Of a stretch of DNA of 64,000 nt, positions 5,669 through 62,207 are shown one piece after another. The notes beneath the pieces are model-generated. The model saw nothing but the letters and a program-made list of their open reading frames with translations, ran no database searches and was not told the DNA's origin. This stretch comes from Bifidobacterium sp. (lineage in GTDB: Bacteria > Actinomycetota > Actinomycetes > Actinomycetales > Bifidobacteriaceae). The translations under genes and the position numbers were made by a program. The stretch is from contig NZ_JALCLM010000001.1 of NCBI RefSeq assembly GCF_022647885.1, positions 1,054,001 through 1,118,000 of the forward strand. The letters are read 5' to 3'. Position 1 is the stretch's first letter. Every line of letters begins with the position of its first letter.

Positions 5669-5776
5669 ATGGTGGCTTGGTTTCGAGAATTTGATCTTGA
5701 GAAATCGACTTTTGGAGATGTGCTGTCATGGCTGTTACTCAGCAAATACAAAATCACGGCATACTGCTGCGTTTAA
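5669..5776 (+). CDS. Possible 35-codon leader ORF overlapping the ATPase start
   Basis: An ATG preceded by a strong Shine-Dalgarno (GGAGGTGG, about 4-5 nt away) opens a 35-residue frame starting MVAWFREFDLEK and ending ITAYCCV. It runs in another frame past the ATPase start at 5728 and stops at 5774-5776. Its ribosome site is better than that of the ATPase itself. It could be a leader or coupling peptide that controls ATPase translation, possibly through its terminal Cys-Cys. It may equally be chance; no homologue is known to me. Confidence 0.3.
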   Translation: MVAWFREFDLEKSTFGDVLSWLLLSKYKITAYCCV

Positions 5777-7719
5777 GCGCGAGCCGCATACTACTGCTGT
5801 TAACTGTGCTCATTGGTGTCGTAGCGGCCACATTATGGCGCATTCAGTATCCAGTGGCTTCCTGGTTGCTGATTATCACTGCAGTGGTTAGCGTCCTCCA
5901 CTCGCTGTGGGGCATGATCGCTAATATACGTAAAGGGCACGTAGGCGTTGACATTCTTGCAATTGTGGCATTGATGTCAACGCTCGCAGTCCATGAATAT
6001 TGGGCTGCTTGGGTCGTTGTTCTTATGGTCTTTTCTGGTGAGGCTATTGAGGATTTTGCCGAGTCTAAGGCGCAACGCAATCTTGAGGCGTTGGTGGAGG
6101 CTGCTCCTTCTGTTGCTCATATAGCTCAGTTATCAGATGCTGGCGAAACTGTATGGAATACAGTTTCTGTTTCAGAGGTGAATATCTCTGACAAACTCTT
6201 AGTGAAACCAGGTGAAACAATACCTGTTAATGGTGTGCTGCATAGCGCGCAAGCCACGCTGGATATGTCGATGATTAACGGTGAACCGCTTCCTGTAGAT
6301 GTGTATGAAGGTTCAAAACTGTCATCAGGAGCAATTAATGGCGCATCTGCTATTGAGATGATAGCGACGGCGAAATCCGCAGATTCCCAGTACCAGAAGA
6401 TCATTGAATTAGTGAAGTCCGCTCAGGAATCTCGTCCTGCATCGGTAAAAACCGCTGATCTGTTGGCTGTGCCCTTTACTGTGATTTCGCTGGCAATTGC
6501 ATTCATGGCATGGGGTATTTCTCGTGATCCTATGCGTTTTGCTGAGGTTTTGGTTATTGCCACTCCCTGTCCTCTTCTGATTGCTGCGCCTGTGGCATTT
6601 ATGGGCGGGACTGGGCGTTTGGCCAAAGCAGGAATTGTTATCAAAGCTCAAGATATTCTTGAACGTCTGGGCGAAGTGAATCATGTGTTCTTTGACAAAA
6701 CTGGAACCTTAACGCAAAAGAAGCCCCGTGTCGATCGTATTGAGTTGAGTGATTGGTCTCAGCAGCAGGGGTTGAATCCTGATCAACTGCTTATTTCTGC
6801 AGGGATGCTCGAAGGTTATTCCTCACATATTCTTGCGCGTGGTGTAGAAAAGGCTGCTTTGGATTTGATACACGAGAAGCATTTGCAGCGTCCAGTGGTG
6901 ACTGAAGCACGTGAAACCACCGGAAATGGTGTGCAAGCAAAGGTGGCTGAAAACCTTATCGCTGTGGGCAGGTTGAAATTTGTGGCTCCTGATATCACCG
7001 AAGAAGAGATTCAGTCGGCATTTCCTGTTTTGGCCTCGAATGAGATGGTCACATACCTTGCTGTCAATGGCAACATGGCCGGCCGTATCATTCTCAAGGA
7101 TTTCCCGCGTCAAAACGCGAAAGCGACAATACAACAGTTGAATGATTTGGGTGTTTCCCGTGTGACGATGCTAACAGGAGACAAGCTGGACTCAGCAAAT
7201 ATCGTGGCGCACGCTGTTGGTATTCGAGATGTTCGCGCCGAGCTGTTGCCTGAGGAGAAAGTGTATGCAGTTGAAAGCGCGCGAGAAGAGCCGAGCATTG
7301 CTCAAGGGCGTGCCCAACGATTAGTGCTGTGGTTGAAAGGTCTCATAGGTATAAATACTGATAGCAATATCAGCATGATGGTCGGCGATGGTGTGAATGA
7401 TGCGCCTGTGCTTGCAGCTTCTGATATTGGTGTGGCTATGACGGATGGTTCATCCACTGCTGCATCTGAGTCAGCTCAGGTAGTCATTATGAATGATGAT
7501 ATTGCCATGGTGCCAACTGGCATGATGATTTCTCGTCAAACCAGGCGCATCATGTTGCAGGCAGTGTTTGGTGGCATTATTGCAGCAATTATCTGCATGA
7601 TTGTTGCTGCCTTTGGTGTGATACCTGCGGTTCTTGGTGCGCTAATTCAAGAGCTTATTGATGTGGCATGTATCTTGTGGGCATTGACTGCCATTATTGA
7701 CCACAAAATTACCTTTTGA
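5728..7719 (+). CDS. Heavy-metal P1B-type ATPase (TPC-motif subfamily)
   Basis: This is a membrane pump that exports a transition-metal ion at the cost of ATP. It has no N-terminal HMA domain and begins directly with membrane helices. The ion-path motif ATPCPLLIA (about residue 277) carries TPC in place of the CPC or SPC of better-known subgroups. The phosphorylation motif FDKTGTLT lies at about residue 322 and the hinge motif GDGVNDAP at about residue 553. The last helices carry LIQELIDVACILWAL, resembling the IDV-type terminal helix of a TPC group often annotated as Zn/Cd pumps. The usual nucleotide-domain His-Pro pair is replaced: the segment reads SSHILARG. At 663 residues it is compact. 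The start ATG has GGAG 11 nt upstream and overlaps a short ORF with a stronger ribosome site. Metal specificity cannot be read from the sequence. Confidence 0.85.
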   Translation: MAVTQQIQNHGILLRLSASRILLLLTVLIGVVAATLWRIQYPVASWLLIITAVVSVLHSLWGMIANIRKGHVGVDILAIVALMSTLAVHEYWAAWVVVLMVFSGEAIEDFAESKAQRNLEALVEAAPSVAHIAQLSDAGETVWNTVSVSEVNISDKLLVKPGETIPVNGVLHSAQATLDMSMINGEPLPVDVYEGSKLSSGAINGASAIEMIATAKSADSQYQKIIELVKSAQESRPASVKTADLLAVPFTVISLAIAFMAWGISRDPMRFAEVLVIATPCPLLIAAPVAFMGGTGRLAKAGIVIKAQDILERLGEVNHVFFDKTGTLTQKKPRVDRIELSDWSQQQGLNPDQLLISAGMLEGYSSHILARGVEKAALDLIHEKHLQRPVVTEARETTGNGVQAKVAENLIAVGRLKFVAPDITEEEIQSAFPVLASNEMVTYLAVNGNMAGRIILKDFPRQNAKATIQQLNDLGVSRVTMLTGDKLDSANIVAHAVGIRDVRAELLPEEKVYAVESAREEPSIAQGRAQRLVLWLKGLIGINTDSNISMMVGDGVNDAPVLAASDIGVAMTDGSSTAASESAQVVIMNDDIAMVPTGMMISRQTRRIMLQAVFGGIIAAIICMIVAAFGVIPAVLGALIQELIDVACILWALTAIIDHKITF

Positions 7720-7809: not shown

Positions 7810-8899
7810 CTAATCACAGCTCAGAGCTTGTTTCATAGGGAGATAAGTGATCTGGGGAGTTGTAGGTTTCCAATTGCCGTAGTGCTGGCTGAACCAGTCT
7901 GGTGCTTCTGAGTCTTCTGTGGATGCAGCTTTGATGATGGCATTGGTATTAATCGGACAGGTTGCCACAATGAATGTTGACTTCCCTGGAATCATCAACT
8001 GATCCTGAAGGTTGAACGCGCTGAGGGGCGTATGAGCTTTTTCGATATCCGTTAATGCAATAGTTTTGGTGAGTTTGCAAGCTTTGAGAGCTACGTTGAT
8101 TAGTGTGAAAGAAATGGTTGTTTGACGCCCTTTATTTCCGCTACTGCTGGAAATAATGTTGTTCTGCTTGAGTGGGTCTGCCACCAATAATTCGCACGCA
8201 GAATATTGCTGGGGGCTTTCTACGCTACCATCATCGGCAAGTGCTGGACCGTAATGCGGTGTAGTCCAAGGTGTGACGAGTACTGATGTGTGTGCGTCAG
8301 TGGTAAGAATATTTGATATATTACCGTTACTTCCAGCTTGAACGGGCAGAGAGTTGATGCCCGAAAAGCTTACGGACAATAGACTGCTCGCACTTCTGTC
8401 GACCTGTTGGCTTTCTTCCCATGAGAAATTGCTGCTGATTGACTCGCCAAGGCATAATGGTTGCGGTGGTGTCATAGCTCATGTATGTGCCCGTGTGCCC
8501 TGGTATCTGAACATTATTGAGTTGGAGGTTCTTGCCTCCTCGTTTCATAGTAATCACCGGCGCTTCTGATGTGACTGAACAGCCGAGTCGACTGATGTTT
8601 TGAACACGAATCCAGGCACTCGATGTTCCCATTGCACTGGTACCAAATTCAACAACTGCAGATAAATCAGTATTGTTGCATGCCTTTGCATTGTTAGAGC
8701 GAGTAGCAGCAACAAAGTTACCATCAGCGTCACGCACCGCTGTGTATGGAATGATGGAGGTCGTTGGCGACTGAGTCACAGGATGATATAGCACAACGGC
8801 GCATGCTGCAACGAGGCCAATCAGCACCAATGGCACAGTAACCAGAAGAATAGCTCGTACTCGTTTACTGCTAAGGCCACTACGAGAGCTTGATTGCAT
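7810..8899 (-). pseudogene. Frameshifted single-pass membrane protein with extracellular domain
   Basis: Two overlapping minus-strand frames form one protein interrupted by a one-base frame offset near 8440-8475. The upstream part (start ATG at 8899, MQSSSRSGLSSKRVRAILL) has a basic N-terminus, one membrane helix and an extracellular beta-domain with paired cysteines (KACNN and RLGCSV). It runs to GTYMSYDTTATI and then loses sense. The other frame takes over with PLCLGESISSNFSWEES and continues about 210 residues to the end. The extracellular fold resembles DUF4232-like Cys-paired domains, which is a weak resemblance. Either the gene is recently inactivated, or there is a sequencing error, or frameshifting occurs. 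It lies divergent to nrdF with about 250 bp between them. Confidence 0.65.
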
Positions 8900-9072
8900 A
8901 GTGCCAAGTATATTCACAGCGGCACGTGTAAAGCGCTCGCCATGAAAGCCATAGCAATCATGGATGAGTGACTCGAAAACAATGATGAAGCTATGAGGTG
9001 TGGGATATATCACATAAGAGTTCTAGGGGTAGAACTTTTGCGTGTCGCTGACAGAATTCTTCTGATGCATCA

Positions 9073-9119
9073 ATACTATATGTGGTGCAATAGAAAGAAT
9101 AAAGCACTGCATATAGTGG
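9073..9119 (+). promoter_or_regulatory. Pair of NrdR boxes upstream of nrdF
   Basis: Two 16-bp sites fit the NrdR consensus ACACTATATATAGTGT at 12 of 16 positions each. Box 1 spans 9073-9088 and contains ACTATATGTGGT. Box 2 spans 9104-9119 and contains CACTGCATATAGTG. Their starts are 31 bp apart, the three-helical-turn spacing typical of paired NrdR boxes. They lie 33-79 bp before the nrdF start, so nrdF is probably repressed by NrdR when dATP is high. Confidence 0.75.
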
Positions 9120-9151: not shown

Positions 9152-10192
9152 GTGCAAGATAGAGTTCGACCCATCGAATTAGCAGATGATGCCATGATGA
9201 AAGCATCTGTAACGCCGCCACAATTCAGGCTGGACCACTCGTCGAGAATCCGTCCTGTCAACTGGAACGCCATCAGAGATGACAAAGATTTGGAAGTCTG
9301 GAATCGTTTAGTCTCAAATTTCTGGCTTCCAGAGAAAGTGCCGCTATCAAACGACATTCCCTCATGGAATTCACTCAGCGAGATTGAGAGGGATACCACT
9401 GTTCGCGTGTTTACAGGCTTGACGCTACTCGACACCACACAATCTTCGGTGGGGGAGATTTGCCAAATCGAGCATGCCCGCACCGAGCATGAGCAGGCTG
9501 TGTACACCAATATTGCGTTTATGCAGGCTGTGCATGCACGGTCCTATTCATCCATTTTTTCAACCCTGTGTTCAAGTGAACAGATAGATGATGCTTATCG
9601 GTGGGCGGTTCGCAATGATTTACTCCAAGAACGTGTGCGCACAGTTCTTGTGGAGTACGAAAGTGATGATCCTCTCAAACGTAAAGTAGCTGCAACGCTA
9701 CTATCCTCTTTGCTGCTCTATGCGGGTTTCTATTTGCCGTTGCATTTTGCATCTCGGGCGAAATTAATGAATACGGCAGATATGATTCGTTTGATACTGC
9801 GGGACAAGGCTATTCATGGATATTACTCTGGATATAAATATCAACGAGGACTTGAGCTACGTTCGGATTCAGACCGTGCAGCGATAGATAGTTTCACTAA
9901 TCAACTACTAGATACGTTATATGATTTGGAATTGCAGTATTCGGATCAGGTGTATCAAGGTTTCGATTTTATCGATGATGTGCATGCCTTTGTTCGCTAC
10001 AACGCTAACAAAGCCTTGATGAATCTCGGCTATCCAGCACGGTATAGCGCTTCTGAGACAGCAGTAAGCGCAGAGATATTGGCAGCGCTGTCTCCTGCAG
10101 CAGATGAGAATCATGATTTCTTCTCAGGTTCCGGTTCCTCATATGTTATGGGACATTCAGAATCCACTGATGATGACGATTGGGAATTCTAA
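9152..10192 (+). CDS. nrdF: Class Ie (metal-free, QSK-type) ribonucleotide reductase small subunit
   Basis: It is homologous along its whole length to class Ib NrdF, the radical-storing small subunit that partners NrdE. From this start every ligand position falls at the E. coli NrdF number plus 27. Asp94 (D67), His128 (H101), His222 (H195) and the radical Tyr132 (Y105) are kept. The three bridging/terminal glutamates are changed: Gln125 (E98, in AFMQAVHARSYS), Ser185 (E158, in TLLSSLLLYAGFY) and Lys219 (E192, in RDKAIHGYY). This Q/S/K triad is the signature of the metal-free R2e group, which stores its radical on a DOPA side chain. The GTG at 9152 is chosen for GAGGAG 11 nt upstream. Paired NrdR boxes precede it. 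nrdI and nrdE are not adjacent. A 113-bp repeat lies 25 nt downstream. Confidence 0.9.
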   Translation: MQDRVRPIELADDAMMKASVTPPQFRLDHSSRIRPVNWNAIRDDKDLEVWNRLVSNFWLPEKVPLSNDIPSWNSLSEIERDTTVRVFTGLTLLDTTQSSVGEICQIEHARTEHEQAVYTNIAFMQAVHARSYSSIFSTLCSSEQIDDAYRWAVRNDLLQERVRTVLVEYESDDPLKRKVAATLLSSLLLYAGFYLPLHFASRAKLMNTADMIRLILRDKAIHGYYSGYKYQRGLELRSDSDRAAIDSFTNQLLDTLYDLELQYSDQVYQGFDFIDDVHAFVRYNANKALMNLGYPARYSASETAVSAEILAALSPAADENHDFFSGSGSSYVMGHSESTDDDDWEF

Positions 10193-10217
10193 AGGGTGTT
10201 TTTACACGCTGATTGTT

Positions 10218-10330
10218 GTTTGTGTAGTGATTGGTGACTACATCGGAGCTGGTCAGCATTTCAAATCGTTGGAATACTGCCCATCGGATTTTTCGATACT
10301 GTGCAGTGAATGATAAATCCCTACACAAAC
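10218..10330. repeat. 113-bp palindromic dispersed element, copy A
   Basis: The element is bounded by GTTTGTGTAGTGATT and AATCCCTACACAAAC and begins 25 nt after the nrdF stop. It is the same length as copies B and D. Read in reverse complement it shares GTTTGTGTAGGGATTTATCA and AGTAT (offset 31) with copy B. Read forward it shares GTTGGAAT at offset 51 with copy D. Confidence 0.85.
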
Positions 10331-10339
10331 GACAAAGAG

Positions 10340-10374
10340 GGCTGTTTTCGTGATGTTCAATCACGAAAACAGCC
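10340..10374 (-). terminator. tRNA-Arg terminator hairpin
   Basis: A perfect 14-bp stem (GGCTGTTTTCGTGA and complement) with a 7-nt loop lies 2 nt beyond the CCA end of the tRNA gene on the minus strand. It probably ends the tRNA transcript and may also end leftward-to-rightward transcription from nrdF. Confidence 0.7.
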
Positions 10375-10376
10375 TG

Positions 10377-10453
10377 TGGTGACCCCGGACGGGCTCGAAC
10401 CGTCGACCTTGAGATTAGAAGTCACATGCTCTATCCAGCTGAGCTACGGGGCC
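10377..10453 (-). tRNA. tRNA-Arg, anticodon TCT
   Basis: A complete cloverleaf of 77 nt with encoded CCA is present. The acceptor GGCCCCG pairs with CGGGGTC (one G-T). The D arm is GCTC/GAGC, the anticodon loop CTTCTAA gives TCT, and the T arm GACGG-TTCGAGC-CCGTC is perfect. The anticodon stem TGTGA/TCTCA contains one T-T mismatch at 29-41. It reads AGA/AGG arginine codons. Confidence 0.95.
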
Positions 10454-14897: not shown

Positions 14898-14914
14898 AAT
14901 CCTCATGCACTGCC

Positions 14915-15027
14915 GTTTGTGTAGGGATTTATCAATAGACGCGCAGTATAAAACATTTGAAAACACTGCAATTCCGCCGTTCTCGTTTCTTCAATAGTTG
15001 AGGAAACGAGAATAATCCCTACACAAA
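14915..15027. repeat. 113-bp palindromic dispersed element, copy B
   Basis: The element runs from GTTTGTGTAGGGATTTATCA to AATCCCTACACAAA, 17 nt after the zur stop. Internally it has TTTGAA at offset 42 and AATTCCGCC at offset 56, both at exactly the offsets seen in copy D. The right half contains an additional local hairpin, TCTCGTTTCTTCAA with its complement. Confidence 0.85.
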
Positions 15028-26417: not shown

Positions 26418-26519
26418 GTTTGTGTAGGGATTTTATCGGAGCAGACAATAGTGGCTACCGTAGTTGCAACGATTTCAGGAATAGATACTCGGTGTCTGGC
26501 TAAAATTCCCTACACAAAA
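26418..26519. repeat. 102-bp palindromic dispersed element, copy C
   Basis: The element runs from GTTTGTGTAGGGATTTTATC to AATTCCCTACACAAAA, 14 nt after the LtaS stop. Reversed, it has AGTAT at offset 31, as in copies A (reversed) and B. The word AAATCGTTG near offset 45 matches copy A within one base of register. It is about 11 bp shorter than the other three. Confidence 0.8.
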
Positions 26520-62047: not shown

Positions 62048-62083
62048 AGCGCTCCTTTTTTAGTATATTGCCTCTCCAAATTC

Positions 62084-62196
62084 GTTTGTGTAGGGATTTT
62101 CATGAAGAGCTGATGTATTACTTTTTTGAAGTTGTTGGAATTCCGCCATTTCCCAAGTCAATTATTGTCTCTATACTTTCAAATCCCTACACAAAC
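62084..62196. repeat. 113-bp palindromic dispersed element, copy D
   Basis: The element runs from GTTTGTGTAGGGATTTT to AAATCCCTACACAAAC, with 16-bp nearly perfect inverted ends. TTTGAA is at offset 42, GTTGGAAT at offset 51 and AATTCCGCC at offset 56. It lies 11 nt beyond the stop of the minus-strand AlbA-domain gene and 36 nt upstream of the glycosylase start. Confidence 0.88.
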
Positions 62197-62207
62197 GTTG
62201 TGGGTTC

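Follow-up and report, generated by a model that had tools for sequence, protein, structure and literature searches.

The nrdF gene described here lies in the window, the whole 64,000-nucleotide stretch of a Bifidobacterium genome that was analysed. Assignment of its product as a class Ie ribonucleotide reductase small subunit (R2) of the QSK type is supported by the site residues, by its position in the NrdF tree and by 79% identity to a crystallised Gardnerella vaginalis protein, in agreement with the class proposed in the earlier note. Very probably, the gene encodes a working metal-free QSK R2 that shares the NrdI and NrdE of a distant nrdIEF operon with the class Ib R2 encoded there. The protein adds one member to an already known, characterised class, and its setting is less ordinary.

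Site residues and class assignment

9152..10192, + strand: nrdF, assigned to class Ie, QSK type; 346 aa from GTG 9152, 349 aa if the start is GTG 9143

The start codon is uncertain, as GTG 9143 is in frame too and is as possible as GTG 9152. A 91% identical relative (genome G016) has an ATG placed one codon after the position matching GTG 9143, and the residue numbers given below could shift by 3 with the other start. The translation of 9152–10192 (+) ends in the R2 tail TDDDDWEF.

The site residues are read from an alignment of 181 NrdF-like frames, drawn from 88 stretches of 64 G-numbered genomes plus 79 named loci, and are D94, Q125, H128, Y132, S185, K219 and H222. The E. coli NrdF counterparts, which we take from the earlier note to be D67, E98, H101, Y105, E158, E192 and H195, are offset by 27 at every ligand position, exactly as that note had counted. 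Q125, S185 and K219 replace the three Glu ligands, and the Asp (D94), the two His (H128, H222) and the radical Tyr (Y132) are retained, so that the Q/S/K reading is borne out. In addition, the protein carries the consensus residue at 129/129 positions where a single residue accounts for at least 97% of both the QSK and the class Ib (R2b) group, and the QSK state at 17/17 positions fixed differently between them. Together with the alignment, these positions rule out that the ligands are misplaced and the glutamates lie elsewhere.

The D/Q/H/Y/S/K/H string occurs in 97 of the 181 rows, representing 74 distinct sequences since some named loci repeat G genomes, and D/E/H/Y/E/E/H occurs in 71. The remaining 13 rows comprise 11 intact diverged proteins, one piece of such a protein and one fragment, and none of the 181 is intermediate between the two strings. 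Because 97 rows share the same string with no intermediates, the QSK string is not a product of chance.

The comparison with R2e and R2b proteins that had been proposed earlier places the window NrdF with the QSK group. In a tree of 94 chosen rows built by a quick method, all 67 QSK rows, the window protein included, fall on one side of the starred branch with support 100. The tree keeps 16 of the 71 R2b rows and leaves out near-identical rows, the G018 and G129 fragments, and loci L037–L046 and L078, which duplicate G genomes. The top solved-structure matches are 8RAG and 8RAH (phmmer, E 3e-187 and 3.3e-187; 625 bits), some 190 bits above the next chain, both of the R2e-QSK of G. vaginalis (Bifidobacterium vaginale). 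This protein is identical at 266 of 337 aligned residues (79%) and has the same Q/S/K set, the same kept Asp, His, His and Tyr and the R2 tail. The Mesoplasma florum R2e-VPK (6GP2; Aerococcus/Streptococcus type) belongs to the same metal-free, DOPA-bearing R2 class and matches over nearly its full length at 406 bits, but class Ie VPK proteins have Val, Pro and Lys where the window protein has Gln, Ser and Lys, and their gene order is nrdFIE (PMC11846895, in extract). Class Ib R2 proteins belong to the same family and have all six metal ligands including three Glu, whereas the window NrdF has all three Glu replaced. The NCBIfam label, class 1b, is contradicted by the site residues. Among viral relatives, the best 80 of 162 show 55–63% identity. 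A QSK-type R2 is favoured because the QSK residues, the fixed and signature positions, the 8RAG/8RAH match and the tree branch all point to it.

Since D, H and H are kept in 97/97 QSK rows, D94, H128 and H222 might hold a single metal ion, in which case the protein would not be truly metal-free. Such single-metal binding is very improbable, and we reject it: in the extract of PMC11846895 the 79% identical homologue contains only trace Mn and Fe, and two structures are metal-free with the Lys amine occupying one metal position. The same extract reports that DOPA formation in G. vaginalis R2e-QSK depends on NrdI and that the DOPA-R2 is active with reduced NrdI. A residue list for the R2–NrdI contact is lacking in the accessible part of PMC9462851.

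Partners in the genome and gene layouts across the family

The window genome (G000) is a single contig of 2,342,264 bp and 99.89% complete, and contamination is rejected on this basis. It contains two PF00268 proteins, the window gene product and one at 831,848–832,666, together with a single NrdI at 828,547 and a single NrdE at 829,722. The latter three genes form an operon of order nrdI-nrdE-nrdF at 828.5–832.8 kb, 230 kb from the window nrdF (235 kb for nrdI), and the operon nrdF reads D/E/H/Y/E/E/H with all ligands present. A genome-wide search for nrdI, nrdE and a second nrdF with intact ligands, as the earlier note had advised, thus finds one of each. One NrdH-like protein (664,673; 58% to the Gardnerella protein) and one class III NrdD (2,228,106) are also encoded. 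Around the window gene itself, neither nrdH nor nrdI nor nrdE occurs in 12 kb (5 kb before, 6 kb after), confirming that it stands without nrdI or nrdE beside it. A place beside nrdI is usual for the QSK group, though not defining. In G. vaginalis, the QSK gene is the last of nrdHIEF and encodes the only class I R2 (PMC11846895, in extract), whereas the window gene lies apart from such a cluster and its genome encodes a class Ib R2 as well.

As the genome encodes a single NrdI and a single NrdE for two R2s, these partners must be shared if both R2s work. Published work has NrdI as the activator of class Ib R2 too. The two R2s of the window genome are 58% identical, and their R1-docking tails are nearly the same (28/34 identical residues, versus 164/282 in the core); the tails are likewise 26–28/34 identical in seven further genomes with both R2s. 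The earlier conclusion, that ribonucleotide reduction in this organism could proceed with a metal-free R2, appears sound. The organism is nonetheless not dependent on the metal-free R2, since the second nrdF, with all its ligands, stands in the nrdIEF operon.

Under the proposed mechanism, the window gene would supply a working metal-free class Ie (QSK) R2 as a second possible partner for the one NrdE (R1) of the cell. The O2-derived oxidant would come from NrdI of the distant nrdIEF operon. Hydroxylation of Tyr132 would give DOPA, which would be oxidised to the radical, and Lys219 would stand in for one metal ion. From there the radical would reach NrdE through Tyr331, a conserved tail residue, with the conserved C terminus of the QSK R2 docking on NrdE. 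The class Ib R2 would be served by the same NrdI and NrdE, yielding two exchangeable radical subunits, one metal-needing and one not. The QSK R2 would likely serve to supply dNTPs aerobically under shortage of Mn or Fe. A hint of such a metal-related role, by analogy, may lie in the repression of class Ie by Fe and Mn in Streptococcus pyogenes, described in the accessible part of PMC8463856.

Gene layouts across the family bear on partner sharing. In the extract of PMC11846895, nrdF-QSK is represented by 275 sequences in 266 GTDB genomes, with gene orders nrdHIEF in 17 cases, nrdIEF in 106 and nrdIF in 104; where nrdE is missing from the stretch it is nearly always elsewhere in the genome, making R1 sharing possible. 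These nrdIF(QSK) layouts with a separate nrdE resemble the present case in that the QSK R2 must share its R1 with another locus, and differ in that nrdI adjoins nrdF, which is not so in the window genome and 21 further family genomes. QSK genes without nrdI are not discussed in that extract.

Matches of E 1e-140 or better occur in 55 of 189 Bifidobacteriaceae genomes. All 55 have the QSK residues, and the surroundings of each locus were examined for nrdH, nrdI, nrdE and nrdF. The layout is nrdH-I-E-F(QSK) in 18. In 15, QSK lies directly before nrdI-E-F(R2b), with a further nrdI ahead of it in 13 but not in G014 and G015. The other 22 are unlinked, lacking nrdH, nrdI and nrdE for about 5–8 kb on each side (G000, G016, G024, G048, G121, G142, G058, G059, G071 and G128–G140), and the unlinked position of the window gene is therefore not unique. 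In G048, nrdIEF lies 11 kb from QSK on the same contig. Outside the family, the Actinotignum loci L064 and L076 have no nrdI beside QSK and one nrdI in the genome.

All 22 unlinked genomes contain NrdE (in two pieces in G132), and NrdI is present once in 21 and as two pieces in G132. They divide by the second R2: an intact class Ib R2 accompanies QSK in six (G000, G016, G024, G048, G121, G142; PF00268, 307–318 bits), a strongly diverged PF00268 protein does so in 12, and QSK is the sole PF00268 protein in four (G058, G059, G132, G135). In G132 (L229, L293), QSK nrdF, nrdI and nrdE are all broken, by joint decay or assembly frame errors. G058, G059 and G135 yielded no R2 other than an intact unlinked QSK, and a complete nrdHIE lies elsewhere in each. 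These genomes are 96, 93 and 95% complete, respectively; G135 is one contig, and a missed R2b is possible in the multi-contig G058 and G059. The relatives argue that an unlinked QSK R2 can work with distant NrdI and NrdE, and function with unlinked partners may be extended by inference to the window organism. Partner sharing is favoured because there are one NrdI, one NrdE and two R2s with a common docking tail, and because of these three genomes, which offer a natural experiment for unlinked QSK as the only R2 found. More broadly, in this setting one can test directly whether a single NrdI and NrdE can serve both a metal-free and a metal-using R2, and ask why a cell keeps both.

The NrdI lineages add to this picture. 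In a tree of 117 rows and 133 columns, in which columns are few and many forks are open, and from which near-identical rows and the G-genome duplicates L037–L046 and L078 were omitted, one bifidobacterial group (61 rows, support 99) unites the NrdI of Gardnerella with those of the window genome and the other unlinked genomes. Thirteen bee-type genomes of the same genus (L200, L203–L214) show the order nrdI'-nrdF(QSK)-nrdI-nrdE-nrdF(R2b), each R2 with its own nrdI. The extra nrdI of this layout joins a group of 32 rows (support 86, not starred) with NrdI from QSK-carrying actinomycetes that lie outside the Bifidobacteriaceae. The nrdI that accompanies QSK in these bee relatives is absent from the window genome. 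The pattern fits an arrival of nrdI-nrdF(QSK) as a unit with later use of the native NrdI, a direction that we infer. The lineage matters because the NrdI that makes DOPA in QSK (PMC11846895, in extract) is of the native lineage.

Diverged R2 proteins and a proposed replacement of a metal cofactor

The diverged PF00268 proteins lie beside or within about 15 kb of nrdHIE in the 12 genomes (best stretch 74–175 bits). One example is listed here; the other loci, L279–L289, belong to G138, G136, G071, G128, G129, G130, G134, G133, G137, G139 and G140.

L278, 1109–2251, - strand: diverged PF00268 protein (G131)

Eleven are open frames of 378–485 aa, and the G129 copy contains an internal TGA. Two metal ligands are missing. 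Ten copies read E/E/H/Y/(E or Q)/I/S at the site, the G071 copy reads E/S/H/Y/Q/L/S, and the G129 piece has E/I/S at the last three positions. Any tail tyrosine is absent and the R1-docking end, DDDWDF, present in 12/12, and 50 of the 129 otherwise fixed positions are changed in all 11 intact copies. Pairwise dN/dS among them has a median of 0.205 (range 0.115–0.506 over 55 non-independent pairs), against 0.056 for QSK of the same genomes, both values being rough with dS near saturation. As far as such rough ratios go, the diverged protein appears to be under purifying selection, and it resembles a catalytically dead R2 that has been retained for some other role. In genomes with this probably dead R2, the unlinked QSK is likely the only credible R2. 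The branch of the diverged proteins is too long to place in the NrdF tree; their position beside nrdE and their best NCBIfam matches, which are class 1b models, suggest descent from a class Ib copy. A protein of this kind was not found in paper titles or abstract starts of an incomplete library.

Dead R2 proteins with docking tails in relatives, and the docking tail common to both R2s of the window genome, would also suit a window QSK protein that chiefly regulates the class Ib R2 or forms heterodimers with it, and that competes for NrdE or NrdI instead of generating the radical. Such a role is improbable: unlike the dead R2 proteins, the window protein keeps Tyr132, the tail Tyr331 and all shared fixed positions, and a purely regulatory function is weakened further because QSK is the only R2 found in G058, G059 and G135.

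Taking the window protein as a working R2, its relatives with QSK only or with a dead second R2 offer living stages, open to comparison, in which a protein-derived radical takes the place of a metal cofactor. The yeast protein Rnr4 lacks metal ligands. It pairs with Rnr2 in the heterodimeric yeast R2 (PMC4245953, in extract). We tentatively propose a series, plausible yet somewhat short of an even chance, in which a metal-free R2 arrives, shares the single NrdI and NrdE of the resident metal-using R2 as a metal-independent alternate and then displaces that R2, and the old R2 remains as a dead R1-docking subunit. This subunit may act as a partner or a regulator of the metal-free enzyme, loosely comparable to Rnr4 with Rnr2. 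The window genome would then represent a stage with two working R2s.

Upstream elements, constraint and neighbouring sequence

The region before nrdF contains two dyads and a pair of NrdR-like boxes:

8999..9014, no strand: TGTG-N8-CACA dyad, just before the next dyad; kept in G016 and G024 too
9020..9035, no strand: GTTCTAGGGGTAGAAC dyad, conserved before the QSK gene of G000 and G016; the G024 copy differs by one change
9073..9088, + strand: NrdR-like box 1, 12/16 letters of the assumed consensus
9104..9119, + strand: NrdR-like box 2, 12/16 letters of the assumed consensus, starting 31 bp after the start of box 1

Boxes were scanned as two 16-mers starting 30–33 bp apart and scored by identity to an assumed NrdR consensus. 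The pair before the window nrdF scores 24/32, higher than any other in the window (next 21); ahead of the nrdIEF operon of this genome, a pair with the same 31 bp spacing reaches 28/32. As background on the window + strand, 10/440 overlapping 290-bp tiles reach 20 and 2/440 reach 22. The whole nrdD and nrdH loci also contain box pairs of 24. Across the unlinked family QSK genes, 21/22 have pairs of 22–27, G132 being counted as 24 from its own nrdF start, and G059 has 20, the background level. The paired NrdR boxes noticed earlier are thus present, and the remark that they are unusual does not stand, given that 21 of the 22 unlinked genes lie above background. No literature on a second nrdF or on NrdR boxes in Bifidobacterium was found, and the accessible part of PMC5535262 mentions neither.

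A 40-bp element spanning both dyads is 82.5% identical between G000 and G024 (E 9e-5), and nothing else beside the gene aligns in G024. The element lies at 8999–9035 in the window, at 7375–7411 in L196 and near 8547–8562 (-) in L198. The GTTCTAGGGGTAGAAC dyad has one exact copy in the window genome and one more with 2 mismatches, versus 2 and 2 for reversed controls; a scan of this genome found no regulon for it, and it is absent before the QSK genes of G142, G048 and G121. Both upstream dyads are proposed as putative regulatory sites.

Constraint on the coding sequence is evident in the three closest QSK copies, with pN 0.054–0.092 and pS 0.61–0.86 (dS saturated in two of three pairs). Class Ib copies of the same three genomes have pN 0.005–0.011 and pS 0.48–0.67. 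QSK is therefore constrained but evolves faster than the class Ib copy, and may matter less because of this faster change. QSK is also absent or broken in 9/27 same-genus genomes, with broken pieces in G018, and adjoins nrdI' in the 13 bee relatives. All three observations would suit a relic that has lost its own nrdI and is itself being lost, the class Ib R2 doing all the work. This is nevertheless an unlikely history, no more probable than a regulatory role, and we reject it: the frame is open, all shared fixed and signature positions are retained, pN is far below pS, the NrdR-like pair is retained, and the 40-bp element is kept in G024 despite otherwise unalignable flanks. A working QSK R2 is favoured because pN is far below pS, NrdR-like boxes occur at both loci and the NrdI is of the Gardnerella group.

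Two genes before nrdF, window 5728–7719 (+) encodes a P-type ATPase (E1-E2 ATPase). Between the two lie two overlapping frames at 7810–9013 (-) with no Pfam match, which may represent an insertion or a broken gene because the ATPase gene stands directly before nrdF in G016. The link of ATPase and nrdF is probably due to chance, since the QSK gene lies elsewhere in G024. After nrdF, an imperfect long inverted repeat occupies window positions of about 10213–10336 (fold z -7.9 for 10185–10375). Its 16–24 bp end recurs at 14911–14934, 26418–26433, 62082–62103 and 62181–62197, resembling a small mobile element. Downstream of the repeat, a strong hairpin at 10341–10378 is followed by a tRNA-Arg gene at 10377–10453 (-).
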